Origin: an uncultured Bacteroidales bacterium
GTDB lineage: Bacteria; Bacteroidota; Bacteroidia; Bacteroidales; F082
Direction: 5' to 3'
Assembly (NCBI GenBank): GCA_946410535.1
Contig: CAMKAR010000005.1
Coordinates: 1-23,117, forward strand
Length of the DNA: 23,117 nucleotides
Position 1 is the first letter of the stretch. Every line of letters begins with the position of its first letter. The notes under the pieces are model-generated. The model saw only the letters and a program-made list of their open reading frames with translations. It did not search any database and was not told where the DNA came from. The position numbers were made by a program, and so were the translations under genes. This document shows, in pieces, positions 273 through 17,453 of the stretch.

Positions 273-2105
273 ATGGCAAAAATCCGATTTGGCATATTGT
301 GGAGCCTTTTCCTCGCCCTCGTTTCGGCGCAAGCCCAAACCGACACTGTGGTGTTCTCGGCCCATGGTGGCTTTTATGAAGAGACTTTTGCGCTCGAACT
401 GTTCAGTTCCAACCCGCAGAACCACATCCGTTATACCACCGATGGTAACCGTCCCACGGCGCAATCGGCACGCTATGAGGCGCCGTTGCAGATGGATTAC
501 AGCCTCTATTCGAGGTCCGACATCTACACCATCGTCAACTGTCCCCATCCTGATTTCTTCCTGCCCGACAGCATTCGCCATTGCATCGTGATTCGAGCGG
601 CGGTTTTCGACGAGAACGACAGCTGTGTGAGTCGGGTGGCGACCCACAGCTATTTCATTCGTGCCTTGGGCTGCGACACGCATGGCCTGCCCGCCGTTTC
701 GCTCTGTGCCGACTCGTTGGATTTGTTTGGCTACGAGCGAGGCATTCTCGTTCCTGGCATTAATTTTAACCCGTATAACCCTTATGCCACAGGCAATTAT
801 TTCATGAAAGGCCGCGAATGGGAACGGCAGAGCAACTTCGAGTTTTATGAAGCCGGTGGCAGCGTCGGCGTCAACCAGCTATTGGGGCTGCGCACCCATG
901 GCAAGCAGTCGCGCTGGCGCAGCCATAAGGGCTATTCCCTCTATGCCCGCGAGGAGTATGGCAAGAAGCGCATCCACTACAGGTTTTTTGACACCACCCC
1001 GTTGGAGAAATTCAAGCACCTCACTCTGCGCCCGTTTTCGAGCACATGGAATGGCGCTGGCTGCCAGGATCATCTCTGCAACCTCATCGCCCATCCGCTC
1101 GACGTGGAGACCCTCTCGTCGCGCCCTTGCGTGTTGTTCATCAACGGCGAGTATTGGGGCGTGTATTATGTGGAGGAGAAACCCGACGAGAACTATTTGG
1201 AAGACCACCTTGGCGTGAACAAGGATCGTGTCACCATCATCAAGGAATGGCAAGAAGTGGAATGCGGCACTGCCGACAACTTCGATGCGCTGCTTGCCTG
1301 GATGGAGCAGGCCGACCTTGCCGACGAGGAGCAATATGCCTATGCCGCAGCGCATATCGACATTTCCAATTTCATCGACTATTTTGTCTTCGAGCTTTTC
1401 GCCCTCAACCTCGACTGGCCGGCCACCAACACACGCTGCTGGCAGGAGGGCGACGGCAAGTGGCGCTGGATCTTCTACGACGGCGACGGGTGCTTGGTCG
1501 AGAAAGACGATTTCAATGCCTTCGCCAATGCCACCTATGAGGGCGAACCAGTTTGGCCTACCAACAGCAGGGCTACACTGTTCTTCAGGCGCTTGCTTGA
1601 GAACGAGGGGTTCAAGGCGCAGTTTTGCAGCCGTTTCAACACGTTAGCGGCAACCACATTCGCCTATCAAAACACCAAACCCTATTTCGACGGCATCTAC
1701 CAAGCCTTGCAGCCCGAGGTGCCCAACCAGATGGAGCGTTTCAACATGCCGCACACCATCGCTGGCTGGGAGAACTACAGCATGCCTGTGATCCACTCTT
1801 TCCTGATGCATAGGCCCATCCATGTCATCGCCGAATTGAACGAGTTCTTGTCTGTCGTGGAGCCAGTGGCCCATGTGGCGAAATGCTATCCCAACCCTTT
1901 CACTGAGGAGCTTCGCATTGTCGTTGATGCCGAGAGCTTCGGCGCAAAGGAGGTGGCTGTTTACGATGTGATGGGGCGGAAAGTCTACGCGCAGCCGTGT
2001 TGGTTGGACAAAGGGGATAATGAGATTGTGCTTCATCCCAATCTAAGCTCGGGAGTGTATTTGTTGCAAGTGGGTGGGCATTCGCAGCGCATTGTGCGGC
2101 TCTAA
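273..2105 (+). CDS. Secreted CotH-kinase-type protein with T9SS sorting domain
   Basis: The product is 610 residues from ATG 273. An in-frame ATG at 243 would place ten extra residues before the signal peptide and would overlap the -7 box, so 273 is preferred. Residues 1-22 form a signal peptide ending in the AQAQ region. Residues 25-75 resemble a chitobiase/hexosaminidase C-terminal-type beta domain (RYTTDG...PT). The CotH-kinase region spans about 180-520, with LTLRPFSSTWNG, FINGEYWGVYYVEEKPDENY, NLDWPATNTRCW and WRWIFYDGDG (acidic pair D403/D405). Residues 535-610 are a type A T9SS sorting domain (CYPNPFTEEL ... LSSGVYLLQV). CotH family members are atypical protein kinases, and the sorting tail predicts export to the cell surface or medium. 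The target is unknown. The gene's stop overlaps the stop of the convergent SGNH gene. Confidence 0.85.
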   Translation: MAKIRFGILWSLFLALVSAQAQTDTVVFSAHGGFYEETFALELFSSNPQNHIRYTTDGNRPTAQSARYEAPLQMDYSLYSRSDIYTIVNCPHPDFFLPDSIRHCIVIRAAVFDENDSCVSRVATHSYFIRALGCDTHGLPAVSLCADSLDLFGYERGILVPGINFNPYNPYATGNYFMKGREWERQSNFEFYEAGGSVGVNQLLGLRTHGKQSRWRSHKGYSLYAREEYGKKRIHYRFFDTTPLEKFKHLTLRPFSSTWNGAGCQDHLCNLIAHPLDVETLSSRPCVLFINGEYWGVYYVEEKPDENYLEDHLGVNKDRVTIIKEWQEVECGTADNFDALLAWMEQADLADEEQYAYAAAHIDISNFIDYFVFELFALNLDWPATNTRCWQEGDGKWRWIFYDGDGCLVEKDDFNAFANATYEGEPVWPTNSRATLFFRRLLENEGFKAQFCSRFNTLAATTFAYQNTKPYFDGIYQALQPEVPNQMERFNMPHTIAGWENYSMPVIHSFLMHRPIHVIAELNEFLSVVEPVAHVAKCYPNPFTEELRIVVDAESFGAKEVAVYDVMGRKVYAQPCWLDKGDNEIVLHPNLSSGVYLLQVGGHSQRIVRL

Positions 2106-3841
2106 GGCGTTTCCAAGCTGTAGTAGTTCTTCTTGATGAGCCTGTTGACGATCCAGCGGGCGTCGATTAGCGTTTGTTGCTCCACGGAAAGGCCGTTTTT
2201 GGCCGCTTTTTCCTCGATTTGTTTCATGGTGTTGGGTTTGCTGCGGAGCTGTTGCAGCATGTCGGCAACGAGTTGTTCAACGCGGTCGCGCTTGGCTTCG
2301 GGGTCGGCCATGTCGCGCATCAAGGGTTGGCCTTCGATGATGTTGTGGGCTTCCATGAGCAGCACTTGTTGCAGCGTGGCGTATTGGATGACGGTTTGGC
2401 AGGTCGAGAGGTTCCACATCCAGGCCGAGTCTTTCTTGATTTCGTTGATGGCGACGATTTCCTTTATCCTCGGGTTGCGCAGGGCGGGGAGGCTGTCGGA
2501 GGCCAATTCGGGGAAGTAGCGTTCGGGATGGTCGTAAACCAACTGTGTGGCTTTCGGCCAAAGTCGTTGCTTGTAGTTGCTGTCGGCAAGCGGCTCGACG
2601 ATTGAGGCCAAGGTGAGGCTGTCGTGCCTCAGGCTGTCGATGAGGCGGAGGTAGGTCGGGTTGATGTCTTCCAAGCTGTAGCAAAGGTTGAGGATGGTCT
2701 TTGCGGCAAAGTCGGAGGTGCCTTTGTTCAGCTGGTTGCCCGTGGTGAACCACACCACATAGTCGAAGCTGAGGAGTTTTTCGAGGAAGTCCAATTGGTT
2801 CACGCGGGTGGTCTCGGTCAGGTTTTGGCCCGAATAGGCGGTGGAGAAATAGTACCAAAACTCGGTGGTCTCAAACATTTCGTTGAAGGGCACGAAGAGG
2901 TTCATGGCCCAAAAATAGGAATTGCCGATGAAGAGCACTTTGGGCTTGGTGCAACTTGTGTCGGCCTCGATGCTGACGTGGCGGCGTGGGGCGTAGCCGT
3001 ATTGGTGGCGAAGGGGGCGGGTCAGGTTGAGGAGCAGCTCAAGGTCGTTGTCGTAGTCGTGGTCGCGTTCGGGGGTCTCGTAGGTCTCGCCGATGCGGAT
3101 TTTGGGCAGTTTCGTGCCTTTCAGTTGGCCCATGAGGCGCGTCAGCGTGTCGGCGGCATAGACCGAAGGGAAGATCCAGTGCGCCCCAGCTTGAGGGATG
3201 AGCGGATAGTTGACCGTGTCGTTGATTTGGCTGAACCAACGGGTCATTTCGATATAGGGGAAGCCGCTTTCATCGAAGCGTTGGGCGAAATGGTCGCAGG
3301 CGTTGAAGCCTGTGGAGTCTTTTTCCCCATCGGGCAGGAACTCGGGATAGAGGAAGCTCTTTTCGGGGGCCATGAAAACCAAGAGGTCGACGCCGTTCTC
3401 TTTCAGGATTTGGCGTGCCCAGCTCATGTATTTCGCCTCGTGGTCGAACTTCTCGCGGGCCTCGTCGATGGAAGGATGCCAGCGGAGCAGCTCCTGGCCG
3501 TAGTAGTCCCTGACGCTTTGGGGATAGTAGAGCCAGCCTTGCTTTCCGGCCACCACGTCGTGGGCGTAGGTCTTGCGATAAAAGTCCCAAAGGTATTGGT
3601 TGTAGAGGCGTATGACGGGTTCGCGGAAGCCGAAGTGTTGGCTCGCGTAGGCCTCTGTTTCTTTGCCGAAGCTGCCTGATTGGTAGGCCTCAAGCCCGAA
3701 TTTTGGCCTGTCGGTTTCTTTGGTGACGCCATTGAGGGGTTTCACAGGAAGCCAATGAAGCCAGCCTTGCAGCAGGGGCATGAATCCCAGCACGGTAAGC
3801 AGGATGAATAGCACGAGGTCGTATTTCGGCTTTTTCCCCAT
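2102..3841 (-). CDS. AlgX/AlgJ-like SGNH O-acyltransferase paralogue (last gene of operon)
   Basis: 579 residues. A signal anchor at about 8-28 should place the rest in the periplasm. It shares the family block FGFREPVIRLYNQYLWDF (70-87). The SGNH-type core has the nucleophile motif GNSY (S308) and the His motif GAHW (219-222). The Asp of the classic DxHW motif is Gly219 here. Two C-terminal helical repeats follow: one around 458-505 (IKEIVAINEIKKDSAWM ... EAHNIIEG) and one around 521-566 (MLQQLRSKPNTMKQIEEKAA ... DARWIV). The expected role is transfer of acetyl or another acyl group to a polysaccharide, using a group delivered by one of the operon's MBOATs. It abuts the next gene upstream with no gap and overlaps the CotH gene tail to tail by four bases (CTAA). 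Its closest relatives in the operon are the SGNH proteins at 11025-12767 and 9448-11028. Confidence 0.8.
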   Translation of the reverse strand: MGKKPKYDLVLFILLTVLGFMPLLQGWLHWLPVKPLNGVTKETDRPKFGLEAYQSGSFGKETEAYASQHFGFREPVIRLYNQYLWDFYRKTYAHDVVAGKQGWLYYPQSVRDYYGQELLRWHPSIDEAREKFDHEAKYMSWARQILKENGVDLLVFMAPEKSFLYPEFLPDGEKDSTGFNACDHFAQRFDESGFPYIEMTRWFSQINDTVNYPLIPQAGAHWIFPSVYAADTLTRLMGQLKGTKLPKIRIGETYETPERDHDYDNDLELLLNLTRPLRHQYGYAPRRHVSIEADTSCTKPKVLFIGNSYFWAMNLFVPFNEMFETTEFWYYFSTAYSGQNLTETTRVNQLDFLEKLLSFDYVVWFTTGNQLNKGTSDFAAKTILNLCYSLEDINPTYLRLIDSLRHDSLTLASIVEPLADSNYKQRLWPKATQLVYDHPERYFPELASDSLPALRNPRIKEIVAINEIKKDSAWMWNLSTCQTVIQYATLQQVLLMEAHNIIEGQPLMRDMADPEAKRDRVEQLVADMLQQLRSKPNTMKQIEEKAAKNGLSVEQQTLIDARWIVNRLIKKNYYSLETP

Positions 3842-5173
3842 TTATTCCTTTTGCTTTTGCTTGTCCATCTCGATGGCGTAAATGGCATTCAGGCGGAGCA
3901 TTTCGTCGAGTTCGATGCCACGCTCGATGGCCTGCTGCTTGACGCTTTCGAACCATTCGGGCGTGTTCTTGATGTTTTGGATGATGTTTTGGATGCGCAG
4001 TTCTTTGCTTTCAGCATCGCGGTCGACGAAGGCGTGTTGGGCGGTCTCGCAAAAGCCGAACATGTAGTCGTAGGCATAGACCGAGGTGGTGATGACCATC
4101 ACTAAGTCGACTTCGTCAATCACTTTGTACACGTCGGGATAGTATTTCACCTTGCCCAAGAATTCGATTTTCTTGGTGATGACCTCGTCGTTGTATTTCC
4201 AGTAGTCGCACCGTCCGAAGGCGTCGGCGAAGGCCGATTCGTGCAGCTGGATGAAATAGCTGTCGGCGATGACGAGGATGTCGGGCTTGCGCAAGGTGGT
4301 GTCGCTGAGGGCCATGATGGGCTGTGGGACGGCGGGTTTGCGTATGGGCAACAGCAGATTCATCAGTTTTTCGATTTCGCCGTCTTGCTTCGAGTATTTG
4401 GTCGACAGGTTCTCGTCGACGCAAACGATATGCGGCATCTCCTGCCCGATGAGGCTGCCGATTTTCGTCAGTACCGAGTCGGCCACGAAGGGGATGGTGC
4501 TTTCGGCCCAGTGGGTGCCGTAGCGGGTGTACATGGGATACTTCGTCTGTCCTTTCAGCGATTGGAAATAGCTCAAGAAGTCGATGTGGGGGATGCCGTT
4601 TTGCTCGAACAATCGGGTGTAGTATTGTTGCACGTTGAAGGGCATGATGGAGTCGCGGTATTCTTGCGGCATATATTCTGGATACACCCAAGTCTTCGAC
4701 GGCGCTTCCACGAAAAGGAACTGTGTGCCATGGTTGCGCAGGCTGTCGATGAGCACAAGGGTCTTCCCGATGTTGCGTTGGGCTTCGGCTTCAAAGGCTT
4801 CTTGCGATGCGTAGTGGTGCCCAAAAGTCTTGCCTGTCACCTCGTCGAGATACATCTTGAGAAACATTTCCTTGTTTTCGCCACGGATGATGTTGTCGTT
4901 GGTCGATTTGCCGAACAGCGAGAACAGACATTGGTTGAAGGATCGGATGCAAACTTCGCGGAAGCCGCTGTTTCGTTTGGCGTGGTCGGTCAGGTAGTTT
5001 TGGAAAGAGCCGTCGTAATAGGTCTTGAACGTCAGTTTGACGGGTTGCTCGTTGGGGACATAGCCCGACAGGGGCTTCATCTTCACGACATGCGTAAACC
5101 CTTGTAATAGCAAGGCGCAGAGCACCGCAAAGACGCAAACGAATTGGACGAGGAAGTGCTTGTTCTTTTTCAT
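3842..5173 (-). CDS. DHHW/AlgX-like SGNH protein, short type
   Basis: 443 residues with an N-terminal membrane anchor (about 8-25) and a predicted periplasmic SGNH-like domain. Visible motifs are APSKTWVYPEYMP (157-169), the His motif GTHW (219-222, Gly219 at the usual Asp place) and the nucleophile motif ADSY (S305). One C-terminal helical repeat (about 390-436) contains IIQNIKNTPEWFESVKQQA and ends LNAIYAIE. It is most similar to the short SGNH protein at 6608-7966, sharing QGFTHVV near the N-terminus and the GEIE/GELE ... LLLP segment. The two likely arose by duplication. It lies three bases downstream of the MBOAT at 5177-6592 and is the natural partner of that protein. Unlike its paralogue at 6608-7966 it keeps the serine. 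The substrate is unknown. Confidence 0.78.
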   Translation of the reverse strand: MKKNKHFLVQFVCVFAVLCALLLQGFTHVVKMKPLSGYVPNEQPVKLTFKTYYDGSFQNYLTDHAKRNSGFREVCIRSFNQCLFSLFGKSTNDNIIRGENKEMFLKMYLDEVTGKTFGHHYASQEAFEAEAQRNIGKTLVLIDSLRNHGTQFLFVEAPSKTWVYPEYMPQEYRDSIMPFNVQQYYTRLFEQNGIPHIDFLSYFQSLKGQTKYPMYTRYGTHWAESTIPFVADSVLTKIGSLIGQEMPHIVCVDENLSTKYSKQDGEIEKLMNLLLPIRKPAVPQPIMALSDTTLRKPDILVIADSYFIQLHESAFADAFGRCDYWKYNDEVITKKIEFLGKVKYYPDVYKVIDEVDLVMVITTSVYAYDYMFGFCETAQHAFVDRDAESKELRIQNIIQNIKNTPEWFESVKQQAIERGIELDEMLRLNAIYAIEMDKQKQKE

Positions 5174-5176
5174 GGC

Positions 5177-6592
5177 TCAGAATCGGAAATAGATGAAGGG
5201 ATTGAAGTCGGAAACACAAAGCGACCCTGCCGAAAGCACAAACAGCACCAAGGTGATGGCAAACATGGTCCACGAGAGGGGCTTGGAATAATGGTCGGCA
5301 AAGATGCTGTCTTGCAGCCGTTGTCCGAAGGGCAACAGTGTAAGGAAAGAGAACGCGATGGCAAGGGCAAAGACGCACCAGAATTGTGCATCGCCGGCCA
5401 CGGTGAGGCCATTCCTAAACGCGAACAGGGCTTGATAGAAGCCACCGGCATCGGCAGCCGTGTCGACGCGGAAGAGCACCCAACCCATGGCGACCAGGAA
5501 GAAGGTGATGACGACCGAAGGAACCGTGCCAGCTTTTTTCAGCAGGTTTTTTAGGAAGAGCTTGTCGGCGCAGATGAACAAGCCGTGGAAGGCGCCCCAA
5601 AGGACGAAGTTCCAGCTGGCACCGTGCCACAAGCCCGAGAGCAGGAAACAGAGCCAGAGGTTGAAATACATGCGTCCCTTGCCTTTTCGGTTGCCGCCGA
5701 GCGGGATGTAGAGGTAGTTCATGATGAAGTTGCCCAAGGTCATGTGCCAACGTTTCCAGAACTCGGTGACGCTGCGGCTGGTGTAAGGGTCGTTGAAGTT
5801 CTCGGGGAAGCGGAAGCCCATCATCTTGCCAAGGCCGATGGCCATGTCGCTGTAGCCCGAAAAGTCGAAATAGATTTGGAAAGTGTAGGCGAGGATGCCA
5901 ATCCAGGCGGTACCCGTGGCCAAGTCACCGTAGTTCATGCCAAACACTTGATCGGCATAGAGGGCCATGGTGTTGGCGATGAGCACCTTCTTGGCCAAAC
6001 CGATGACGAAGCGGTAGAACCCCAAGGCGCGGTCTTCCATCGTGCTGGTGCGCGAAACCAGTTGCGCCGCCACGCTGTTGTAGTTGACGATGGGGCCTGC
6101 GATGAGCTGCGGGAACATCATGATATACAGCACATAATCGGTCAGCTTCTGGCTGGGCGGTGTTGTGCCGCGATACACGTCAATGGTGTAGGTGATGCTT
6201 TGGAAGGTGAAGAACGAGATGCCGATGGGCAGTGCCACTTTCATCCAGCCGATGGGTTCGTGATGCGCCCAACCCAAGATGGCGTTGAGGTTCTCCATGA
6301 AGAAGTTGGCGTATTTGAAATAGAGCAGCAGCCCCAAGGCCATGACGACGGAAAGGCCGCAAAGCAATCTCTTCGTACTTGTTTTCTCCGTTTTGGCCAT
6401 GCCTCGCACCAAAAAATAGTTGACGATGCACTCGCCGACGAGCAGGAAAACGAAGTCGGGCGCGCCGTAGGCGTAGAAAACCAAGGAAAAGAGCAATAGG
6501 GTATAGTTTCTGAATTTCTGCGGCGTGATGAAATAGGCTATCAGGAAGATAGGCAGAAAAAAGAAAAGGAAGATGTTGCTGCTGAATACCAT
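5177..6592 (-). CDS. MBOAT-family O-acyltransferase, AlgI-like
   Basis: 471 residues, strongly hydrophobic with many membrane segments. The MBOAT signatures are present: PQLIAGPIV (161-169), FDFSGYSDMAIGLG (242-255), EFWKRWHMTL (277-286, H283), YIPLGGNRKG (295-304), LSGLWHGASWNF (318-329, H323) and LWGAFHG (331-337, H336). In AlgI and DltB systems these His-bearing segments line the acyl-transfer channel through the inner membrane. Compared with the other two MBOATs of the operon it lacks about 18 residues between roughly 217 and 230, in a loop just before the FDFSGYSDM segment. The start ATG follows an A-rich leader. It sits between two short-type SGNH genes, which are probable partners that receive the acyl group in the periplasm. 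Confidence 0.9.
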   Translation of the reverse strand: MVFSSNIFLFFFLPIFLIAYFITPQKFRNYTLLLFSLVFYAYGAPDFVFLLVGECIVNYFLVRGMAKTEKTSTKRLLCGLSVVMALGLLLYFKYANFFMENLNAILGWAHHEPIGWMKVALPIGISFFTFQSITYTIDVYRGTTPPSQKLTDYVLYIMMFPQLIAGPIVNYNSVAAQLVSRTSTMEDRALGFYRFVIGLAKKVLIANTMALYADQVFGMNYGDLATGTAWIGILAYTFQIYFDFSGYSDMAIGLGKMMGFRFPENFNDPYTSRSVTEFWKRWHMTLGNFIMNYLYIPLGGNRKGKGRMYFNLWLCFLLSGLWHGASWNFVLWGAFHGLFICADKLFLKNLLKKAGTVPSVVITFFLVAMGWVLFRVDTAADAGGFYQALFAFRNGLTVAGDAQFWCVFALAIAFSFLTLLPFGQRLQDSIFADHYSKPLSWTMFAITLVLFVLSAGSLCVSDFNPFIYFRF

Positions 6593-6607
6593 AAGTTGTT
6601 CTTATTT

Positions 6608-7966
6608 TTAATGTTGGTTATTGTTGTCTTGTTCGTTCTTTTGCATTTGAAAAACATACGCGGCGTTCAACCTCAGGTTTTCTTCTACGCTGATGCCGCG
6701 TTCTTGGGCTTGTTCTTGTATGGCCTTGAACCAGTTTGGGTCGTTCTTGATCGATTCCATGATGGAGCGGATGGCTTCTTGCTCTTGTATGCTGCCGTTG
6801 GAATAGAGCTGCAAGGCGGATTGGGTAAAGCCGCTCATGTAGTTGAGCAGGTAGTTGGAGGTGTAGAGCGCAATCACGATGTCGGCTTGCTTCAGGGTCT
6901 CAGCCGTTCCCATGAGTTGGTCGAGGTATCTCCAGTTCAACTCGGGCCTTGAGGAAATGGAGGTCTTGTTATAGAACCAGAAGTCCCAGCGGTTGAAGGC
7001 GTTGACGAAGCAGGAGCCTTGCAACGGAGTGAAATAGCCGTCGCCTACGACAAGCAGGTTGGGCCGGTCCTTGCCTATGGTGTCGCGCAAGGTGGCTACA
7101 GGCCTCGATGCCTTGGGCTTGCAGTAGGGTAGGAGCAAGTCGATGTGGGTCTCAAGTTCGCCATCTTGGTCGGAATAGTTGCGGCTGAGGTTGGGGTCGA
7201 CGACTTCAATGTTGGGGAAGCGGTAGTCGGTAATCGCTTCGAGTTTCCTTAATATCGAGTCGGCCACGAATGGGATGGTGGCTTCGGCCCAATGGGAGCC
7301 GGTGCGTGTGTAGAGCGGGTAGGGGAAACGGTCTTTCAGCGTCTTGAAACAGGTGTAGAAATCAATGTACGGAATGCCGTTTTCCTCGAAGAGCTGGGCA
7401 TAATATTCTGCCAGCGCGAAGTCGGAGATGCTGTCTTTGTATGCGTCGGGCATATATTCGGGATAGACCGCCGGCTTGGTAGGACAGAGGACAAACAGGA
7501 AGCGCGTGCCGTGTCGGCGAAGGCTGTCGATCAAGGTCAGCGTCTGCCCGACGTTCTTTTGGGCATCGGCCTTGGCGTCGTCGACGGTGCCGTATTTGTC
7601 CAACAAGAGCTTCCCGGCAACGTCGTTGATGTTGCCTTTCAGGAAAAGCTCGTGGTGTTTGCCTTCAACCACGTTCGGATTGGCGATTATCCCGAAACAA
7701 TTGTAGGCGACTTGGTTGTGGCATCGGCTGAAAAACTCCCTGAACCCCGTGTTTTTCCTTGCTTTCTGTTCAAGACACTCCTGATAGGAGCCGTCAATGT
7801 AGGTGGCCCAGGTCAAATCCACTTCTTGTTTCCCGACCTTGACTTTATCCGTATATGGGCTTAAAGGTCGCGTTGGCACGACATGGGTGAAGCCTTGCAA
7901 CGCAATGAATGCGAGCAAAACCATGAAGCTGGCGAATGGGATGATATGATGCCGAGGTTTTTCCAT
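6608..7966 (-). CDS. DHHW/AlgX-like SGNH protein with nucleophile Ser replaced by Gly
   Basis: 452 residues, N-terminal anchor at about 9-25 and a predicted periplasmic SGNH-like domain. It parallels the protein at 3842-5173 throughout (QGFTHVV, YPEYMPDAYKDSI, VADSIL, DQDGELE). The His motif is GSHW (223-226). Where the family has GDS or GNS, this protein reads GDGY (308-311), so the expected catalytic serine is Gly310; the codon is GGC, one base from AGC (Ser). The frame is otherwise intact, without stops or shifts. This suggests a protein kept for binding or as a partner subunit rather than a decaying gene. A C-terminal helical repeat (about 397-441) contains SIMESIKNDPNWFKAIQEQA. It starts two bases after the MBOAT gene 7969-9438 ends, and is followed after 15 bases by the MBOAT at 6592. 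Confidence 0.78.
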   Translation of the reverse strand: MEKPRHHIIPFASFMVLLAFIALQGFTHVVPTRPLSPYTDKVKVGKQEVDLTWATYIDGSYQECLEQKARKNTGFREFFSRCHNQVAYNCFGIIANPNVVEGKHHELFLKGNINDVAGKLLLDKYGTVDDAKADAQKNVGQTLTLIDSLRRHGTRFLFVLCPTKPAVYPEYMPDAYKDSISDFALAEYYAQLFEENGIPYIDFYTCFKTLKDRFPYPLYTRTGSHWAEATIPFVADSILRKLEAITDYRFPNIEVVDPNLSRNYSDQDGELETHIDLLLPYCKPKASRPVATLRDTIGKDRPNLLVVGDGYFTPLQGSCFVNAFNRWDFWFYNKTSISSRPELNWRYLDQLMGTAETLKQADIVIALYTSNYLLNYMSGFTQSALQLYSNGSIQEQEAIRSIMESIKNDPNWFKAIQEQAQERGISVEENLRLNAAYVFQMQKNEQDNNNQH

Positions 7967-7968
7967 GA

Positions 7969-9438
7969 TCAGAACCTGAAGTAGATGAACGGACTGAAGC
8001 CACTGGCGTTCAATGCGCCGAGGCAGAAGATGAAGGCCAGGATGCTGACAATGAAGGCCACGATGTGTTGCCGTTTGTTGTATTCAGTGAAATAGACTTT
8101 GTCTTGCACTTTAAGGCCGAACTTCGAGAGGGTGAAGAACGAGAAGAAGGCGGCCACGAGCATGGTCACATAGAGGTGCGGGTTGTCGCCGAAGTGGAAC
8201 GGGGCGAAGTCGAAGGCGAACAGGCGCTTGATGAAGAGCCACGACAGGTCGATGCGCTCGATGCGGAAGAAGCAGCGCGTCAGCACGATGATAAGGAAGG
8301 TGAAAAACACGCTCGGGATGCGCCCTAATCGCTCGTTGAATTTCTTCAAAAACAGCTTGTCGGCGCAGATGAAGATGCCTTGCAAGGCACCGTAGACCAC
8401 GAAGTTCCACGCCGCGCCGTGCCACAAACCGCTGACCAAGAAGCAGAACCACAGGTTGAAGTATTTTCGGGCTTCGGTCTTCACGCGGCTGCCGCCCAAG
8501 GGGAAGTAGAGGTAGTTCTTGATGAACACGCTGAAGGTTTGGTGCCAACGACGCCAAAACTCGGAGATGGTGGTGGATACATAAGGGTTGTCGAAGTTTT
8601 CGGGGAACTTGAATCCCATCATGCGGCCCAAACCGATGGCCATGTCAGAGTAGCCGGCAAAGTCGAAGTAGATTTGGAAGGTGAAGGCGAAGATGGCGAT
8701 CCAGGCGCTGGTCGAGTCGATGGTCGCGATTTTGTTGGCGATGTCGGCCAACTGGGCCGAGGTGAGCACGTCGTAGTTGGAAGGGCCAAGCAATTTGTCG
8801 ACTTGGAACCCGATGACGTCGGCGATCAACACCTTCTTGCACAAGCCGATGACGAAGCGATAGAAGCCTTGCAGGCGGTCGGTGTAGAGCGACTCGCGGC
8901 TGCGGATTTGGTCGGCAATGTCGCAGTAGCGCACGATGGGGCCGGCAATCAGCTGCGGGAACATGACGATGTAGAGCATGTAGTCGCTCAGCCGCTGCAT
9001 CGGCTCGTTCACCTTGCGGTAGGTGTCGAGGGTGTAGGTCACGCTTTGGAACGAGAAGAACGAGATGCCGATGGGCAACAAAATCTTGGTCCATTGCAGC
9101 GGCTGGCCTCCAAACCAGCCGCGCACTGCGTTGATGTTTTGCATCGTGAAGTTGCCGTATTTGAAATAGAACAGCAGCCCGATGCTGATGGCTATCGAGA
9201 TGCCGCAAAGCAGTTTCTTCATTCCGGGCTTCTCCACCTTGTTCATCCAGCGCACCAAGTAGAAGTTGGCGATGACTGACACGATGAGGTGGATGATGAA
9301 CTCGGGCGCGCCCCAGGCGTAAAACACGAGCGAGGCGAGCAGCAGGAAATAGTTGCGGACTTTCTTCGGCAGGATGAAATACACCAAGAAGAAAATCGGC
9401 ATGAAATAGAGTAGGAATACGTTGCTACTGAATACCAT
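7969..9438 (-). CDS. MBOAT-family O-acyltransferase, AlgI-like, variant third His
   Basis: 489 residues and polytopic. Motifs: PQLIAGPIV (161-169), FDFAGYSDMAIGLGRMMGF (259-277), EFWRRWHQTF (293-302, H299), YFPLGGSRVK (311-320) and SGLWHGAAWNF (336-346, H340). At the position where both sibling MBOATs read WGA[FL]HG, this one reads YGALQG (349-354), so the third His is Gln353. The loop basic patch also differs (GGSRVK instead of GGNRKG). The protein is otherwise close to the MBOAT at 12771-14237, including the 18-residue segment missing from the third copy. It is downstream of two long SGNH genes and two bases upstream of the short SGNH gene lacking its serine. Substrate or partner specificity may therefore differ from its siblings; this is inference. 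Confidence 0.9.
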   Translation of the reverse strand: MVFSSNVFLLYFMPIFFLVYFILPKKVRNYFLLLASLVFYAWGAPEFIIHLIVSVIANFYLVRWMNKVEKPGMKKLLCGISIAISIGLLFYFKYGNFTMQNINAVRGWFGGQPLQWTKILLPIGISFFSFQSVTYTLDTYRKVNEPMQRLSDYMLYIVMFPQLIAGPIVRYCDIADQIRSRESLYTDRLQGFYRFVIGLCKKVLIADVIGFQVDKLLGPSNYDVLTSAQLADIANKIATIDSTSAWIAIFAFTFQIYFDFAGYSDMAIGLGRMMGFKFPENFDNPYVSTTISEFWRRWHQTFSVFIKNYLYFPLGGSRVKTEARKYFNLWFCFLVSGLWHGAAWNFVVYGALQGIFICADKLFLKKFNERLGRIPSVFFTFLIIVLTRCFFRIERIDLSWLFIKRLFAFDFAPFHFGDNPHLYVTMLVAAFFSFFTLSKFGLKVQDKVYFTEYNKRQHIVAFIVSILAFIFCLGALNASGFSPFIYFRF

Positions 9439-11028: not shown

Positions 11029-12767
11029 GGTTTTTCCTCCAAAACGATTTCTCCCTTTTCCACCTTTCTGTTGATGATCCACCGCGCATCGGCGCGAAGC
11101 TGTTCTTCGAAAGTCATGCCGTTATTCTGCGCCTTTTCCTCGATTTGCTTGACCACTTGCGGCTTGTTTCTCATTTCCTCCATCATGCCACGGACAAGTA
11201 TCTCCATTTTGGCCTCGGCAGGAATCTCTTCGGTCATGTCGCGCATCAGGGGCTTGCCGTTGATGACATTCTGGGCTTCAGACTTCAGCAGTTCGTCGAT
11301 GGCGACATTTTGGAGATAAGACTGGTATTCCAAGGCGCTCATCCATTGTGGGTCGTTTTTTATTTCCTTGATGGCCAGCACCTCTGGGATTCTTGGGTTT
11401 CGGGCCGTGGGGATGCTGTCGCCCGCCAGTTCCACGAAATAGTGTTCGATGCCTTTCTTGAGGGTCGTGTTTGCGATGCGCCATATATGGTTGTTGCGTT
11501 CCGCGTTGGTCATGTCTTTGGTTTTCAGGAGCGTCAGGCTGTCTCTGCGAAGGCTGTCCAGTATGCGGTAGCGCGTTGCTTGCACCATGCTGTCGTCGAG
11601 GCAAAGGCTCATCAAGGCGGTTTCGGCAAACATGTAGCTCGTTTTGTACATTTGGTTGCCATCGGTGAACCACACCACATAATCGTGGTCGAGCACTTTC
11701 TGCAAGATGTCAAGCGTGCCTACGCTGGCTTGGAATTGGTAGTTCCTGCCATAGTTGGCGGTTGAATTATAGAACCAGTATTCGGAGTGGGAGAACATGT
11801 CGTCGAACGGGATGAAGTAGTGCATTCGCCAGAGGAACGAGTTGCCGACGAAGAGCACGCTGGGCCAAATCGTGGCCGAGTCTTTCACGATGGTCACTTC
11901 GGCGTCGAGCAGCTTGTCGTCGTTGTGGGGGAGCTTGCGCATCAGGTTGAGGGTGTTTTCAAGGTCGCTGTCGCCCAACTTGGTCTTGGGCGAGCTTTCG
12001 CGCAGCGGCCCGATTTTCATCTCAGGGAAGCGTTGCCCGTTGAGCGCTCCCATGAAGCGGAACAGGGAGTCGGCGGCAAGCACTGCCGAGAACCCCCAGT
12101 GGGCGCCTGCCTGGGGCATGAGCGAATAGGGCAGCGTGTCGGCTTCCTTGAGTTCGAGGAACCATTTTGTCATCTCTATGTAAGGGAAGCCGTATTCGTC
12201 GAATTTGGCGGAATAGTATTCACGGGCGTTGACGGTGGTGGTGTCGTGCTTGCGGTAGGGCAGGTGCTCCGGATAAAGGAAACCCTTGTCGGGGGCCATG
12301 AACATGAGGAACTCAATGCCATAGTCTTTCAGTACGCCACGCAGTTTCCACATCAAACGGGCCTCGCGGTCGAAATCGGCGCAGGCCTCTTCCTTCGTGT
12401 CGTACCAGCGGTACATTTCGGTGCCGTAATACTCGTTGACGTGTTGTATATAATACGACCAATAGTCTTTCCCGATGACGACTTCATCGCTGTAGGTCTT
12501 GCGGAAAAAGTCGTAAAGGAACTGGTTGTACATCCTGATGAGCGGTTCCCTGAATCCGAAATGCTCGCCAAGATAGTTCTCGGTTTGCGTCTGGAAAGTG
12601 GTGGTGCGGTAGTTGTCCCATGTCAGTTCGGGTCGGGGTGCCGCCTCGTAGACGCCACTCAACGACTTGGCGGGGGCAATCGGGAGCGACTGCCTGATGC
12701 CGAAGCTGAACAGGAGGAGCATCGTCAGCACGAACAAGATCGTTGGGATGATTCTACGCTTTTTCAT
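11025..12767 (-). CDS. AlgX/AlgJ-like SGNH O-acyltransferase paralogue
   Basis: 580 residues, signal anchor at about 6-24, then a predicted periplasmic SGNH-like domain. Motifs: FGFREPLIRMYNQFLYDFF (70-88), APDKGFLYPEHLPY (158-171), GAHW (221-224, Gly221 in the Asp place) and GNSF (308-311, S310). Two C-terminal helical repeats are visible: about 459-505 (IPEVLAIKEIKNDPQWM ... EAQNVINGKP) and about 520-573 (MEILVRGMMEEMRNKPQVV ... DARWII). Between the core and the repeats is a segment shared with the protein at 2102-3841 (SLRRDSLTL, YFVELAGDSIPTARNPRI). It starts three bases after the MBOAT 12771-14237 stop and shares an ATGA overlap with the next SGNH gene, so the two are probably translationally coupled. 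Confidence 0.8.
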   Translation of the reverse strand: MKKRRIIPTILFVLTMLLLFSFGIRQSLPIAPAKSLSGVYEAAPRPELTWDNYRTTTFQTQTENYLGEHFGFREPLIRMYNQFLYDFFRKTYSDEVVIGKDYWSYYIQHVNEYYGTEMYRWYDTKEEACADFDREARLMWKLRGVLKDYGIEFLMFMAPDKGFLYPEHLPYRKHDTTTVNAREYYSAKFDEYGFPYIEMTKWFLELKEADTLPYSLMPQAGAHWGFSAVLAADSLFRFMGALNGQRFPEMKIGPLRESSPKTKLGDSDLENTLNLMRKLPHNDDKLLDAEVTIVKDSATIWPSVLFVGNSFLWRMHYFIPFDDMFSHSEYWFYNSTANYGRNYQFQASVGTLDILQKVLDHDYVVWFTDGNQMYKTSYMFAETALMSLCLDDSMVQATRYRILDSLRRDSLTLLKTKDMTNAERNNHIWRIANTTLKKGIEHYFVELAGDSIPTARNPRIPEVLAIKEIKNDPQWMSALEYQSYLQNVAIDELLKSEAQNVINGKPLMRDMTEEIPAEAKMEILVRGMMEEMRNKPQVVKQIEEKAQNNGMTFEEQLRADARWIINRKVEKGEIVLEEKP

Positions 12768-12770
12768 GAC

Positions 12771-14237
12771 TCAGAACCTGAAATAGATGAAAGGACTGAA
12801 ACTGGTGGCGTTCAATGCGGCCACGCAGAACACGAAGGCGCAAGCCGCCACAATCCACACCGCGATGGATTGCTTGTCGTTGAACTCGGTGAAGTAGGCC
12901 TTCTCCTGCACCTTTTGGCCGAACTTGGTCAGCGTGAGGAACGAGAAGAGGGCCGCCACCATCATCGTGACGTAGAGTTGGGCGTTGCCGCCGAAAGGCA
13001 GCCATGCAAAATCGAAGGCGAACATGCGCTTGATGAGCAGCCAGGCCAAGCCGAAGTCCTCGACGCGGAAGAACACCCATATGATGTTCACCGTGAGGAA
13101 AGTGAGGATGACGCTGGGCACCGTGCCTATCTTTTTCATCACCTTGCCGAGGAAGAGCTTGTCGGCGCAGATGAAGAAGCCGTGCAACGCGCCCCAAACC
13201 ACGAAGTTCCACGAGGCGCCATGCCAAAGTCCCGACAGCAGGAAGCAGACCCAAAGGTTGAAATACATTCGTCCTTTGCCCTTGCGGTTGCCGCCGAGCG
13301 GGATGTAGAGGTAGTTCATGATGAACGCGCCCAAGGTCATATGCCAACGGCGCCAAAACTCGGTGATGCTGCGCGAGGTGTAGGGGTTGTCGAAGTTCTC
13401 GGGGAAGCGGAAGCCCATCATGCGGCCCAAGCCGATGGCCATGTCGCTATAGCCGGCAAAGTCGAAGTAAATCTGGAAGGTGTAGGCCAACGACACGATC
13501 CAGGCCGAGGTGCTGTCCAAAGCCGCCACGCGGGTGAAGATGTCGGAGACTTGGCTCGCGTCCAGGAGGGAATAGTTGGCAGGCCCCAATATGGCGTCGA
13601 CCTGTGCCCCGATGACATCGGCGATGAGGATTTTCTTGCACAGGCCAATGACGAAACGGAAGAAGCCCTGCAAGCGGTCGTCCATGGTCGATTCGCGGCT
13701 GCGGATTTGGTCGGCCACGTCGCAATAGCGGATGATGGGACCGGCAATCAGCTGCGGGAACATGGTGATATACAGCACGAAGTCGGTGAGCTTCTCCATC
13801 GGTTGGTTCACGCCACGGTAGGTGTCCAAGGTGTAGGTGACGCTTTGGAACGAGAAGAACGAGATGCCGATGGGCAGCATGATGCGTTTCCAGGTGAGGG
13901 GCGCGTGTCCCGTGAGGCCGAGGATGGCATTCAGGTTTTCCATCGTGAAGTTGCCGTATTTGTAGAACACGAGCAGCCCGATGGGAATGATGATCGACAG
14001 GCCGCAAAGCAGTTTCTTCAGGCCTTTCTTCTCGGTCTTGCACATCCATTTGACCAGGAAGAAGTTGGCCACCGTGGAGCCGACAAGCTGGAAGATGAAC
14101 TCGGGGGCTCCCCAGGCATAGAAAATGAGCGAGGCCAGCAGAAGCACATAGTTCCGGGCTTTCCTCGGCGTGAGGAAATAGACCAGGAAGAAGGCTGGCA
14201 TGAAATAGAGCAGGAATATGTTGCTACTGAATACCAT
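12771..14237 (-). CDS. MBOAT-family O-acyltransferase, AlgI-like
   Basis: 488 residues and polytopic. Motifs: PQLIAGPII (161-169), FDFAGYSDMAIGLGRMMGF (259-277), EFWRRWHMTLG (293-303, H299), YIPLGGNRKGKGRMYFNLW (311-329), LSGLWHGASWNF (334-345, H339) and VWGALHG (347-353, H352). All three His residues expected for the AlgI type are present. It should move acyl groups across the inner membrane to the SGNH partners. Its start lies inside the last codons of the upstream SGNH gene: a 14-base overlap in which that gene's TAG is read here within the Ser codons. The first 15 bases are the same as in the MBOAT at 7969-9438. It closes the first J-I-H-like cassette (two long SGNH genes plus an MBOAT). 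Confidence 0.9.
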   Translation of the reverse strand: MVFSSNIFLLYFMPAFFLVYFLTPRKARNYVLLLASLIFYAWGAPEFIFQLVGSTVANFFLVKWMCKTEKKGLKKLLCGLSIIIPIGLLVFYKYGNFTMENLNAILGLTGHAPLTWKRIMLPIGISFFSFQSVTYTLDTYRGVNQPMEKLTDFVLYITMFPQLIAGPIIRYCDVADQIRSRESTMDDRLQGFFRFVIGLCKKILIADVIGAQVDAILGPANYSLLDASQVSDIFTRVAALDSTSAWIVSLAYTFQIYFDFAGYSDMAIGLGRMMGFRFPENFDNPYTSRSITEFWRRWHMTLGAFIMNYLYIPLGGNRKGKGRMYFNLWVCFLLSGLWHGASWNFVVWGALHGFFICADKLFLGKVMKKIGTVPSVILTFLTVNIIWVFFRVEDFGLAWLLIKRMFAFDFAWLPFGGNAQLYVTMMVAALFSFLTLTKFGQKVQEKAYFTEFNDKQSIAVWIVAACAFVFCVAALNATSFSPFIYFRF

Positions 14238-15843
14238 GGTTTTCTGTTTTCGTGTTGGTGTCTTTTGTTGATGGCACTATCAAGGTGCCCTTTTCGATTT
14301 GTCGCTTGACGACCCAAACGGCGTCGTCGCGTAGGGCTTGCTCGTAGGTCTTGTTGTGTTTCTTGGCTTTCTCAAGTATCGCTTCCTTCGACTTGGGGTC
14401 GGTCGAGAGGCGTTTCATGATGCGTTGTATCTCGCGTTCGACGAAGGCGGTCGAGTCGAGGACGATGGTGTCGGCAGGCTTGCTTTCCCATTTCAGCTTG
14501 CCGGTCTTGATTTTGTGGTCGACAATCCAAACAGCGTCGTCGTACACAGCCTTGTCGATGGTCTTGTTGTGCTTGATGGCTTTCTCGCGGATGGATTTCA
14601 TTGAGTTGGGCGAGGCTAACAGGTTGCGGATGGTGCGTTGTATCTCGCGTTCTACGAAGTCCATCGAGTCGAGCGCGACCTCTTCCACCCCGAAGGCTTC
14701 CAAGGCTTGCTGCGAGAAGTTGTCGTTCATGCGGTATTGCGTGGTGGCGCTATAAAGCAAGACGACGAAATCGGAAGAACACAACTCGTCGGCCATGTCG
14801 ATTTCGCTCACCGAGTGGTGCAGCTTGTCGTAATGGATGGTGTTGTTGTAGTACCAATAAGGCGACTGGGCAAACAATTCGTCCAAGGGGATTTGGTCGG
14901 CGATGGTCCACCAGAAGGAGTCGCCGATGATGATGATTTTCGGCTTTTCAGCCGTCATGTCGCCATCGGTGGTGGCTTTGGCGTAATGATACTTGGGCTT
15001 GGGCATGGGGCGCAACAGGTTGAGCAGCTGTTCCAAATCGTCGTCTGACCCTCTAGCATTGTCGAGAACCCTTGGCCCGATGACGATGTTCTTCATGTTG
15101 ATGCCGCCCAAATGTTCCATATAGCGAATGAGCGTGTCGGCGGCATGGAGGGCGGCATATTTCGACCAGTGTATGCCGGTTTGCGGAAACAGTGCGAAGT
15201 CGGCGGTGTCTTTCATCTGGAGGAAGAAGCGTTCAAGGTTCAAGTGGTTGACGCCAATCTTGGTGAACTCCGCTTCGTTGAAGAAGCGTGGCGACAGGGC
15301 CGGCTCGCCTCGATACGAGGTGTCGGGGTTGTCGGGCAGATGCTCCGGGCAAATCAGGTCTTTGCCGGGTGCCATGCACACGAACAGGTGGGTTCCTTGC
15401 TCTTCAAGGATTTGCTGGAGACGAAGCAGCCGCTGGGCCTCTTCCGAAAGCATCGTGGCCATCTGCGCCGAGTCGCTGGCATAGTAGCGGAATCGGGTCT
15501 GGTAGTAGTCGGCCACAGTGCTGGGTTGGTAGAGCCAACCGTCCTTGCCGAACAGGACTTGTTCCTCGGCAACGGGAGTGTCCCTGTAAAAGTCCCAAAG
15601 ATATTGGTTGTAGAGCCGGATCATAGGTTGCCTGAAACCGAAGCTCTGTTTCAAGTGTTGCTCGGTCTGTTGCTGGTAGCTGCCGTCCCGCAAGTCCTTG
15701 AAACGCAATTCGGGCATGGGTTGTTCGACGACGACTCCCTTGAGGTCTTCGAAACTGAAGAGGTTGAACCGTTTTTGCAGCATTGAGGCGAAAAGCAGCA
15801 GGGCGGTCAGCGCAAACAGTATGGTCTTCGTCGTAGCTCTCAT
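14224..15843 (-). CDS. AlgX/AlgJ-like SGNH O-acyltransferase with duplicated C-terminal repeat
   Basis: 539 residues, signal anchor at about 7-23, predicted periplasmic. Motifs: FGFRQPMIRLYNQYLWDFY (68-86), APGKDLICPEHLPD (158-171), GIHW (223-226, Gly223 in the Asp place), AADTLIRYMEHLGGINMKN (234-252) and GDSFWW (307-312, S309). It pairs closely with the upstream gene at 15840-17453 and shares its ICPEHLPD, HLNLE and MEHLGGINMKN segments, so the two are recent duplicates by family standards. The C-terminus has two 60-residue tandem repeats (391-450 and 462-521), 33 of 60 positions identical by my count. The start forms an ATGA overlap with the upstream stop, and the end overlaps the MBOAT start by 14 bases. 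Confidence 0.82.
   Translation of the reverse strand: MRATTKTILFALTALLLFASMLQKRFNLFSFEDLKGVVVEQPMPELRFKDLRDGSYQQQTEQHLKQSFGFRQPMIRLYNQYLWDFYRDTPVAEEQVLFGKDGWLYQPSTVADYYQTRFRYYASDSAQMATMLSEEAQRLLRLQQILEEQGTHLFVCMAPGKDLICPEHLPDNPDTSYRGEPALSPRFFNEAEFTKIGVNHLNLERFFLQMKDTADFALFPQTGIHWSKYAALHAADTLIRYMEHLGGINMKNIVIGPRVLDNARGSDDDLEQLLNLLRPMPKPKYHYAKATTDGDMTAEKPKIIIIGDSFWWTIADQIPLDELFAQSPYWYYNNTIHYDKLHHSVSEIDMADELCSSDFVVLLYSATTQYRMNDNFSQQALEAFGVEEVALDSMDFVEREIQRTIRNLLASPNSMKSIREKAIKHNKTIDKAVYDDAVWIVDHKIKTGKLKWESKPADTIVLDSTAFVEREIQRIMKRLSTDPKSKEAILEKAKKHNKTYEQALRDDAVWVVKRQIEKGTLIVPSTKDTNTKTENHGIQ
14281..14673 (-). repeat. Intragenic tandem repeat (two 60-residue units)
   Basis: Within the SGNH gene 14224-15843, codons 391-450 (14494-14673) and 462-521 (14281-14460) encode related units. 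Each opens with LDS-x-x-FVEREIQR, has KHNKT in the middle and DDAVW near the end, and closes with G-x-L. An 11-residue linker lies between them. The same unit in diverged form ends all seven SGNH proteins of the operon. Confidence 0.85.
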
Positions 15844-17453
15844 TGCTGCTTCGTCTTTGGGTTTTTGTCTTTCTTCGGGATTTGCAGGCTGCCGCGCTCC
15901 AATCGGTGTTTCACGATCCAGAGTGCGTCGTCGTTGATGGCTTGTTCGAGGGTCTTGCCTTGCTGCTGCGCTTTATCCTTCATGGTGGCCATCTGCGACG
16001 GGGTGCCCTTTATTTCCCTGATGATTTTTTGCACCTCCATGTCGACGAAGGCGATCGAGTCCATTTCGAGATAGGCTTGGGCGCGTTTCGAGCGTTTGGT
16101 GATGATGCTGTCGTTCAGCTCGGGGAAATAGTTCTCGGGGTAGGTGTCGATGAGCCATTGCGCCGAGTTGTGGATGGCGACGTCCACCTCCTTGCCCTCC
16201 TCTTGGGCCTTTTCTTCTATCTTGGCCAACCAATTGGAGTCGGCACGGATGCCTTTCTCGATGCGAGCGTAGGCGGCGTCTATCTCTTCGGGGTCGTAGC
16301 AAAGCGCCATCAAGGCATTTTTCGTGAATCTGTTGTTCATCTTGTAGAGTTGCGTCGTGCTGTAGAACAGGTTGATGAAGTCGGAGGTGAGCAGCTCATA
16401 CACCAAGTCGACGTCTTTCACCGAATTGTAGGCCTTGTCGAAATAGATGGTGCTGTTGTAGTACCAATAGGGGCTTGATGAAAAGATGTCGGGCAGGGGG
16501 ACTTGGTTGGCGATGTTCCACCAAAACGAGTCGCCTACGGTGAGCAACCGAGGCCGGTCGGCGGTTGAGTCGTTGTCGGTGGTTGCCGATGCATAGTAAT
16601 ACTCGAAGTTGGGCAGCGGCCTAATGAGGTTGAGCAGGCCTTCAAGGTCGTTGTCAGGCGCTTGCACGTCTTTGAGCGTCCTCGGCCCGACGACCACGTT
16701 CTTCATGTTGATGCCGCCAAGGTGTTCCATGTAGCGGACAATCGTGTCGGCGGCATGGAGGGCGGCGTAAGCCGACCAGTGGGTGCCCGTTTTCGGGAAC
16801 GGCATGTAGTCGATGGTGTCTTTTATCTGGAGGAAATAATGCTCCAAATTGAGGTGGTTGACGCCTAATCTGGTGTATTCGTCTTCAAGGAAATAGCGTG
16901 CCGACATCCGCGTCGTGTCTTGGTATCTCCCAACGGGTTTGTCGGGGAGATGTTCGGGGCAAATCAGGTCTTTCGACGGCACGATGCAGGCAAACAAATG
17001 GCAGCCGTATGGCTCAAGGATGTGCTGCAACTGATAGACGCGCTTGGCTTCCTTGGCTAACATCTGCTTCATCATGTCGGCATTGAGGGCATGCTGGTGG
17101 AAATGAGTCTGGTAATAGTCGTCGACGGCCCAAGGCTCGTAAAGCCAATCGTCCTTGCCGACGATGAGGATGCCCCGTGGGACGTAGGTCTTGCCGTAGA
17201 AGTCCCAAAGGTATTGGTTGTAGCACCTGAGCAACGGCTCGCGAAAGCCAAAATGCTGCTTCAGGTAGGCCTCGGTGCCGCTTTGGAAGCTCCCGTCGGC
17301 ATAGCTTTTGAGCGACAGGGAGGGCATGGGGGCGGGCACTTCAACGCCTTTCAGCTTGGGGAAACTGAAAACATGGGTGGCCTTCTGTATCAACGAAGCG
17401 AAGAGAAACACCGCTAAAATGCCGCATAATATGGCGTAAAAATGTTTTTTCAT
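15840..17453 (-). CDS. AlgX/AlgJ-like SGNH O-acyltransferase paralogue, first gene of operon
   Basis: 537 residues, signal anchor at about 6-22, predicted periplasmic. Motifs: FGFREPLLRCYNQYLWDFYG (68-87), PSKDLICPEHLPDKP (159-173), GTHW (223-226, Gly223 in the Asp place), AADTIVRYMEHLGGINMKN (234-252) and GDSFWW (307-312, S309). Two C-terminal helical repeats: about 393-436 (IEKGIRADSNWLAKIEEKA ... SAQWLID) and about 471-521 (VQKIIREIKGTPSQM ... DDALWIVKHRLERG). It carries the segment NYFPELNDS, which matches YFPELASDS in the last gene of the operon, so the first and last members share an older common layout. It is transcribed from a -7 box at 17477-17484, divergently from the U32 gene. Confidence 0.82.
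   Translation of the reverse strand: MKKHFYAILCGILAVFLFASLIQKATHVFSFPKLKGVEVPAPMPSLSLKSYADGSFQSGTEAYLKQHFGFREPLLRCYNQYLWDFYGKTYVPRGILIVGKDDWLYEPWAVDDYYQTHFHQHALNADMMKQMLAKEAKRVYQLQHILEPYGCHLFACIVPSKDLICPEHLPDKPVGRYQDTTRMSARYFLEDEYTRLGVNHLNLEHYFLQIKDTIDYMPFPKTGTHWSAYAALHAADTIVRYMEHLGGINMKNVVVGPRTLKDVQAPDNDLEGLLNLIRPLPNFEYYYASATTDNDSTADRPRLLTVGDSFWWNIANQVPLPDIFSSSPYWYYNSTIYFDKAYNSVKDVDLVYELLTSDFINLFYSTTQLYKMNNRFTKNALMALCYDPEEIDAAYARIEKGIRADSNWLAKIEEKAQEEGKEVDVAIHNSAQWLIDTYPENYFPELNDSIITKRSKRAQAYLEMDSIAFVDMEVQKIIREIKGTPSQMATMKDKAQQQGKTLEQAINDDALWIVKHRLERGSLQIPKKDKNPKTKQQ

Follow-up and report, generated by a model that had tools for sequence, protein, structure and literature searches.

To our knowledge, every MBOAT-SGNH system characterised so far pairs a single MBOAT with one or two SGNH proteins, and because of this the determinants of acceptor specificity have been hard to study. 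Cellulose acetylation by WssF-I of Pseudomonas fluorescens uses an MBOAT and an AlgJ-like transferase, which are encoded together with cellulose synthase. Here we describe a locus that contains the same two protein families with more members of each. It lies on a stretch of 23,117 nucleotides (the window, meaning the whole of the DNA analysed) from an uncultured Bacteroidales bacterium (GenBank assembly GCA_946410535.1, contig CAMKAR010000005.1). Ten minus-strand open reading frames (ORFs) fill positions 2102-17453 and encode solely AlgX/AlgJ-type SGNH proteins (S) and MBOATs (M), seven and three in number. We think it probable, though well short of certain, that these ten genes form a modular O-acylation system for an extracytoplasmic glycan, in which few conserved MBOATs work with exchangeable acceptor-side S transferases that diversify acylation.

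The alginate system of Pseudomonas (AlgI/AlgJ/AlgX) resembles the array in combining an MBOAT with SGNH proteins of the AlgJ/AlgX fold, which the predicted structures of S3 and S5 match best. His precedes Ser in the sequence in both (a permuted order), and PxK and HW motifs are shared (excerpts of PMC4148444). The array differs in having ten genes with no synthase or export gene among them, in having mostly Gly for the Asp of the Asp-x-His (DxH) motif, in being mosaic between species, and in S proteins that carry putative helical tail repeats in place of the carbohydrate-binding module of AlgX. In PatA/PatB peptidoglycan O-acetylation an MBOAT with a C-terminal FxYxxF motif, as in the array, feeds a separate SGNH protein (excerpts of PMC12148441). 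That system has one M and one catalytic SGNH protein, and PatB has Ser before Asp/His (canonical order), whereas the array S proteins have the permuted AlgJ order. DltB/DltD/DltX D-alanylation is likewise a relay from MBOAT to SGNH protein through Tyr (excerpts of PMC12148441), but the array MBOATs fall below the DltB cut-off and carry the shuttle motif themselves.

Composition of the array

The gene order is S1 S2 M1 / S3 S4 M2 / S5 M3 / S6 S7. PF16822 (ALGX) scored above its cut-off in all seven S proteins (27.5-48.6 bits against 26.5) and PF03062 (MBOAT) in all three M proteins (90.7-111 bits against 27). A first-pass annotation of the window had reported a ten-gene run of two families in this order, had assigned it to O-acylation and had noted that it includes no polymer-synthesis gene. 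The ORFs and Pfam matches confirmed the run, every gene was S or M, and the Pfam families agree with a predicted role in O-acyl transfer. By identity, the S proteins fall into the groups S1/S2 (49%), S3/S7/S4 (33-44%) and S5/S6 (44%); M1 and M2 are 70% identical, and M3 is 53-59% identical to them. From S1 to S7, the gaps between genes are -4, -14, 3, -58, 9, 2, 15, 3 and 0 bp. The value of -58 between S3 and S4 arises from the listed GTG start of S4 at 11082. With the in-frame ATG at 11028, which is the likelier start, this gap becomes -4 bp and all gaps lie between -14 and +15 bp.

Distribution and a variable slot in relatives

The first-pass annotation had regarded the gene set as an expansion, and ALGX counts (lower bounds, because PF16822 misses diverged S proteins) showed it to be large and lineage-specific in the genomes sampled. 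In a sample of the order (198 genomes), seven ALGX matches were found in the nearest assembly compared, G001, and at most five in the other 197, the next-highest five being scattered on two contigs. A phylum sample of 296 genomes had at most three in the other 295. Within the family (100 genomes), the genus reached seven and other genera at most four, and 6 of 26 genus members had none. In these samples, sets of six or seven were seen in a single genus. No description of such arrays was found among the openly licensed papers that literature searches listed, judged by titles and abstract openings.

Relatives were collected by a scan with M2 as query in one genome per GTDB species. Of 126 confirmed stretches the best 80 were kept, and they make up 73 loci, which judging by their titles are mostly Bacteroidales metagenome-assembled genomes (MAGs), many from ruminant or horse gut. 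One further scan with M2, of viral contigs, yielded no relative; plasmid and phage records were not searched. The window gene order recurs in G001, where the array is broken inside M3 between two contigs, so the array is not peculiar to this window (G001 and locus L009 are the same assembly and not independent of each other). The search for conserved neighbours proposed in the first-pass annotation was productive: the array occupies a slot between a U32 peptidase gene and a CotH gene, and 24 of the 73 loci contain both borders.

These 24 complete slots hold one to three M and two to seven S genes in 18 distinct arrangements, counted with GH16-like proteins (see below) separated and S frames under 300 aa dropped (split genes in L062). 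The window, with seven S and three M, tops this range jointly with L066. Fourteen slots contain S and M alone, with no GH16-like gene and no uncalled stretch longer than 300 bp. Such a stretch is present in five (L024, L025, L026, L031 and L062), and the extra contents are an AAA ATPase gene (L024, L025), a DUF553 gene (L026), a sulfatase-family LtaS-like gene (L031) and a split S region (L062). Arrays with four M genes occur in loci without the far border, e.g. L017, L021 and L060. In outgroup loci a single M gene comes with one or two S genes, often beside a GH16-like gene (L043, L046, L049-L051, L057, L071), which suggests that the array grew from such a pair.

The first-pass annotation had further proposed a multi-step acylation machine, and this part was not borne out. 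A fixed machine, in which each S-M set acylates another position of one glycan or another glycan and the whole set cooperates in each strain, would explain why three S subgroups and three MBOAT clades can be distinguished. It would also suit arrays that stay intact between species: L017, L060 and L021 share one unshuffled array with S proteins 96-99% identical (the pairwise bins behind these identities, like the protein clusters, still count GH16-like proteins under S). But complete slots vary from 1 M + 2 S to 3 M + 7 S, gene order varies, M and S are lost or swapped independently, and outgroups have single M-S pairs. M genes adjoin each other without an intervening S in L019, L024, L035 and L067. 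M2 adjoins many different S clades across loci, so specific M-S pairing is not general. We therefore find the fixed machine improbable; parallel exchangeable modules fit the varying, independently swapped genes better than fixed sequential steps.

The CotH border gene diverges fast, being mostly 38-67% identical to that of the window in relative loci and 96% in G001, and is doubled in some relatives (L015, L035, L037 and L066 among the loci noted). It may functionally be part of the variable slot.

Replacement of S genes between lineages

Trees and synonymous sites indicate that S genes have been replaced between lineages while the neighbouring MBOATs stayed. Between the window and L052, dS was 0.33 for U32, 0.16 for M1 and 0.36 for M2, compared with 1.37 for S1, 2.03 for S2 and 1.19 for S4. 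The S1, S2 and S4 proteins of L052 share 83-90% identity with their counterparts in L066 and L011, as against only 61-70% with those in the window. A clade of window, L009 and L052 was recovered for U32 (100/100) and M2 (99/99) but rejected for S1 (approximately unbiased (AU) test, p 7e-9) and S2 (AU p 0.002). L065 gives a second case. Its M1 and S3 are 97% and 92% identical to the window in amino acids and 91% and 84% at third positions, whereas third positions of its U32 are only 61% identical. L065 falls with the window group in the M1 tree (100/100), a grouping that U32 rejects (p 4e-119).

The same tendency was seen over pairs of loci (GH16-like proteins excluded). Among close pairs, with a U32 third-position identity of at least 78%, 18 of 68 S matches look replaced, i.e. 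had 60% third-position identity or less, as compared with 2 of 37 M matches (Fisher p 0.009, from pairs that share genomes and are thus not independent). In far pairs (U32 below 70%), 14 of 2544 S and 12 of 1629 M matches were at 82% or more; clear recent transfers are therefore few and involve both S and M genes.

M1, M2 and M3 of the window have exact repeats of up to 41 bp in common, and 15 of 22 exact window repeats of at least 18 bp lie between MBOATs. These repeats can seed duplication and misassembly, and nearly all relatives are MAGs; both points speak for neutral accumulation of duplicates or an assembly artefact. Such an origin is very improbable, since the same order is found in the G001 assembly, frames are open throughout, dozens of the 73 loci carry S/M arrays, and dN is low against dS for S5 and for M2 (0.03-0.04 against 0.58-0.81 in comparisons with L012, L014, L065, L066 and L067). 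From the same repeats, the MBOATs could act as recombination anchors.

MBOATs and the acyl-shuttle motif

M1, M2 and M3 all end in FIYFRF and carry WHG with the catalytic His. Among MBOAT frames of at least 440 aa in the relative loci, 147 of 149 have the C-terminal F.Y..F and all 149 have WHG (some G001 genes are counted twice in this set). The F-x-Y-x-x-F motif acts as an acyl shuttle: in PatA its Tyr is auto-acetylated, and an acetylated F-x-Y-x-x-F peptide is a donor for PatB (excerpts of PMC12148441). Because each array MBOAT keeps both the catalytic His and the C-terminal motif, the chemistry is probably the known MBOAT-to-SGNH relay. The acyl group is probably acetyl.

The sole NCBIfam match of the three MBOATs is DltB (TIGR04091), and the two PDB matches of M2 by sequence are both DltB. 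We give nonetheless hardly any chance to teichoic-acid-type D-alanylation or another carrier-protein-fed system. The NCBIfam scores of 149.5-155 bits lie below the cut-off of 375, and DltB membership of M1-M3 was rejected on this ground. FxYxxF is on the array MBOATs themselves, whereas in Dlt it is on the separate DltX (excerpts of PMC12148441). None of the 14 window genes covered by the Pfam scan encodes a carrier protein or ligase; no search for a DltX-like microprotein was made.

Two other MBOAT arrangements were noticed in the genus. A second array type (L082:3724-13509, contig C27 of G289) interleaves four MBOATs with proteins of about 305-345 aa; some of these proteins show GDS/GGS/GNS-like motifs, and the S profile does not catch them. 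A separate, longer single MBOAT gene (frame of about 625-665 aa) is found at G001:C61:15484-15957 (L003) and in similar places in at least eight other genus members.

Active sites of the S proteins

In the models of S3 and S5 (predicted local distance difference test scores 89.2 and 84.5), a helix at the N-terminus precedes a soluble body with an alpha/beta core and a tail of helices. Their best PDB match is AlgJ (4o8v), followed by AlgX (4knc) and AlgKX (7ula), with PatB1 (5v8d) lower. The triad of P. putida AlgJ is D190, H192 and S288, the Asp-x-His and Ser of AlgJ/AlgX (excerpts of PMC4148444). At these positions the array proteins have His in 7/7, Ser in 6/7 (Gly in S5) and Asp in S4, with Gly in the other six. 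Thus, from their residues, not all seven look like standard enzymes. We surveyed 257 S proteins of at least 350 aa from loci L009-L081, of which all have His and 247 have Ser. Gly-His-Ser is the most common type (176), followed by Asp-His-Ser (39), Ser-His-Ser (25) and Gly-His-Gly (10); Glu-His-Ser (3), Ala-His-Ser (2) and Asn-His-Ser (2) are rarer. Gly at the Asp position is not restricted to these arrays, since GxHW is also found in distant loci of Bacteroidota (L072, L074, L075, L081) that have a single M and a single S gene. The Gly, Asp, Ser and Ser-less types all retain an acidic residue some 40 positions ahead of the Ser position, and this residue could take the part of the triad Asp.

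The Ser-to-Gly type of S5 has ten examples, 57-100% identical to S5. Its dN/dS of about 0.12-0.15 in four comparisons (L014, L016, L065, L066) indicates that it is maintained under purifying selection. The gene that follows it is M3 or an M3 fragment in 9/9 readable cases, and the tenth (L011) is at a contig end. M3 without the Ser-less type is found in L019 and L067, and a Ser-bearing relative takes its place in L017, L021 and L060. The Ser-less S5 type with M3 is the only tight M-S pairing seen.

These features bear on another explanation, that several S proteins are esterases or binding subunits which trim, present or protect the acylated glycan, net O-acylation being tuned by opposing activities. 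The missing Asp, the selected and M3-linked Ser-less type and the acetylesterase activity of AlgJ (excerpts of PMC4148444) are in its favor. The universal His and nearly universal Ser among the 257 relatives argue against it, as do the acidic residue that could serve His and the distant one-M/one-S loci, where an S protein with GxHW is the only such partner seen. We regard this explanation as somewhat unlikely.

Tail repeats and neighbouring envelope genes

The S tails contain repeats of about 50 residues that are helical in the S3 model. One to three repeats were found in 238 of 272 S frames and none by profile in 34. Among 3189 ORFs, the tail profile matches only those S frames and 26 of 27 short S-profile matches, the latter comprising 22 proteins of about 590-710 aa and five fragments. 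The 22 minus-strand proteins, caught by the S profile solely through the common tail repeat, are GH16-like: an EIDIE motif is conserved in 14 aligned, and two that were scanned were sub-threshold for Pfam GH16 (E 0.001-0.003). Their alignment found no solved relative at E 0.01. The GH16-like protein is present in 10 of 24 slots and in 30 of 60 genus genomes, with tail-only matches in three more including G001, and its gene shares a contig with ALGX matches in 7/7 of the genomes that have it and were covered by both the family and the genus counts (G248, G264, G269, G282, G287, G292, G296).

The GH16-like protein is membrane- or lipoprotein-like with one tail-repeat copy (L013:15989-17950 (-), also L015, L022, L032, L043 and others); its gene is on the opposite strand beside the array, often adjoining CotH. 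A sulfatase-family LtaS-like membrane protein is encoded in or beside arrays at L031:7933-9972 (-), L057:14997-17438 (-) and L042:19387-21465 (-), with an unscanned look-alike at L034:7921-10029 (-); in L057 an AT3 acyltransferase gene and a DUF2079 gene follow. The AAA ATPase gene lies between the GH16-like gene and CotH (L024:16347-17483 (-), PF01637; L025:18037-19173 (-), an unscanned look-alike). The GH16-like and LtaS-like neighbours suggest an envelope glycan as the target.

Proposed mechanism

For the modular system that we favor, each MBOAT would take an acyl group from cytoplasmic acyl-CoA, transfer it to the Tyr of the FxYxxF motif at its C-terminus and deliver it across the inner membrane. 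Membrane-anchored periplasmic S proteins of AlgJ/AlgX type would then move it through the active-site Ser to the glycan. These relay steps are proposed because of the PatA/PatB and DltB/X/D precedents. The few conserved MBOATs would serve a larger, fast-diversifying S set, the S proteins setting the acceptor residue or position. The sequences show a locus at which S genes are gained, lost and replaced from one lineage to another, so strains may differ in acylation pattern. The Ser-less S5 type probably serves M3 as an accessory subunit and does not itself transfer acyl groups.

Several observations weigh against this modular reading. Only one of the seven array S proteins and 39 of the 257 relatives have the triad Asp. 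In AlgJ, a change of this Asp to Ala leads to loss of acetylation in vivo, while triad variants lose only about 80% of esterase activity in vitro (excerpts of PMC4148444), and thus some array S proteins may be weak or inactive. No polymer synthase was found among the 14 window genes scanned with Pfam, the four outside the array being CotH, U32, a weak DUF6377/GerE gene and a Por-tail protein. S4 does not reject the clade of window, L009 and L052 (AU p 0.078), though its best tree separates them with support of 98-99, and the M1 tree lacks that clade exclusive of L065, yet without rejection (p 0.2). Some apparent S replacements could instead stem from old paralogues lost differentially, and some mosaics could be artefacts of strains mixed at assembly, as almost all of the genomes compared were assembled from metagenomes. 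The region has more terminator-like patterns than expected (32 against 19.3 on both strands, 10 of the 32 on the operon strand); a single array transcript is therefore an assumption.

More specifically, and tentatively, the locus may be a serotype-like mosaic in which the MBOATs are common acyl pumps and, by homology, recombination anchors. The SGNH genes would be acceptor-specificity cassettes, including a nucleophile-less one dedicated to M3, and the tail module shared with the GH16-like envelope protein would dock the enzymes on one glycan-processing complex. New here are the remodelled array in its fixed U32-CotH slot, with few conserved pumps and many divergent, exchangeable acceptor-side proteins, the maintained Ser-less member tied to M3, and the tail repeat common to S and the GH16-like protein. 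Nearly identical MBOATs with many different SGNH partners amount to a natural swap experiment, in which partner specificity, any requirement for the triad Asp and the part played by the Ser-less partner can be tested directly. From the array, rumen-type Bacteroidales seem to use acylation to vary a surface glycan, and this diversity could matter for phage and host recognition.

Transcription signals and flanking genes

The divergent S1 and U32 genes are 74 bp apart. A match to TANNTTTG, which we take to be a Bacteroidota promoter-type motif, lies in this gap as TATTTTTG (Table 1). The motif occurs 17 times across the whole window against 7.7 expected, sites upstream of S1 and U32 included, and none of 100 shuffles reached 17. 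Because of this window-wide enrichment the match is weak support for one array promoter. Sigma-70-like sites were not enriched in the scan (6 against 7.1 expected). A phase-variable locus with an invertible promoter was rejected for the 1.2 kb scanned (16900-18100), which has no inverted repeats of 12 bases or more. Beyond U32, at 19278-22834, the window carries the weak DUF6377 + GerE gene and the Por-tail protein gene, both 96-99% identical in G001.

Table 1. Positions of the array genes, their motifs and the bordering genes in the window
Feature	Positions	Strand	Description	Basis
CotH	243..2105	+	CotH-kinase protein with Por secretion tail; slot border on S7 side, convergent with S7	Syntenic in relatives
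S7	2102..3841	-	AlgX/AlgJ-type SGNH, 579 aa; GxHW, GNS	
S6	3842..5173	-	AlgX/AlgJ-type SGNH, 443 aa; GxHW, ADS	
M3	5177..6592	-	MBOAT, 471 aa; after Ser-less S5 type in 9/9 readable relatives	
M3 FxYxxF	5180..5197	-	C-terminal motif (FIYFRF)	
S5	6608..7966	-	SGNH-fold protein, 452 aa; nucleophile Ser to Gly (GDG)	
S5 residue 310	7037..7039	-	Codon for Gly at catalytic Ser position	
M2	7969..9438	-	MBOAT, 489 aa; 85-99% identical across 14 relatives compared	
M2 FxYxxF	7972..7989	-	C-terminal motif (FIYFRF)	
S4	9448..11028	-	AlgX/AlgJ-type SGNH, 526 aa from ATG; sole array S with D-x-H plus Ser	
S3	11025..12767	-	AlgX/AlgJ-type SGNH, 580 aa; GxHW, GNS	Modelled; top PDB match AlgJ
M1	12771..14237	-	MBOAT, 488 aa; WHG His motif; C-terminus FIYFRF	PF03062, 111 bits
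M1 FxYxxF	12774..12791	-	C-terminal acyl-shuttle motif (FIYFRF)	Motif definition, excerpts of PMC12148441
S2	14224..15843	-	AlgX/AlgJ-type SGNH, 539 aa; 49% identical to S1	Pfam
S1	15840..17453	-	AlgX/AlgJ-type SGNH, 537 aa; GxHW, GDS; two tail repeats	PF16822, 48.6 bits
Candidate promoter element	17477..17484	-	TATTTTTG (TANNTTTG type), 23 bp before S1 start	Motif match, weak
U32	17528..19288	+	U32 peptidase/DUF3656 gene; slot border on S1 side	Syntenic in relatives

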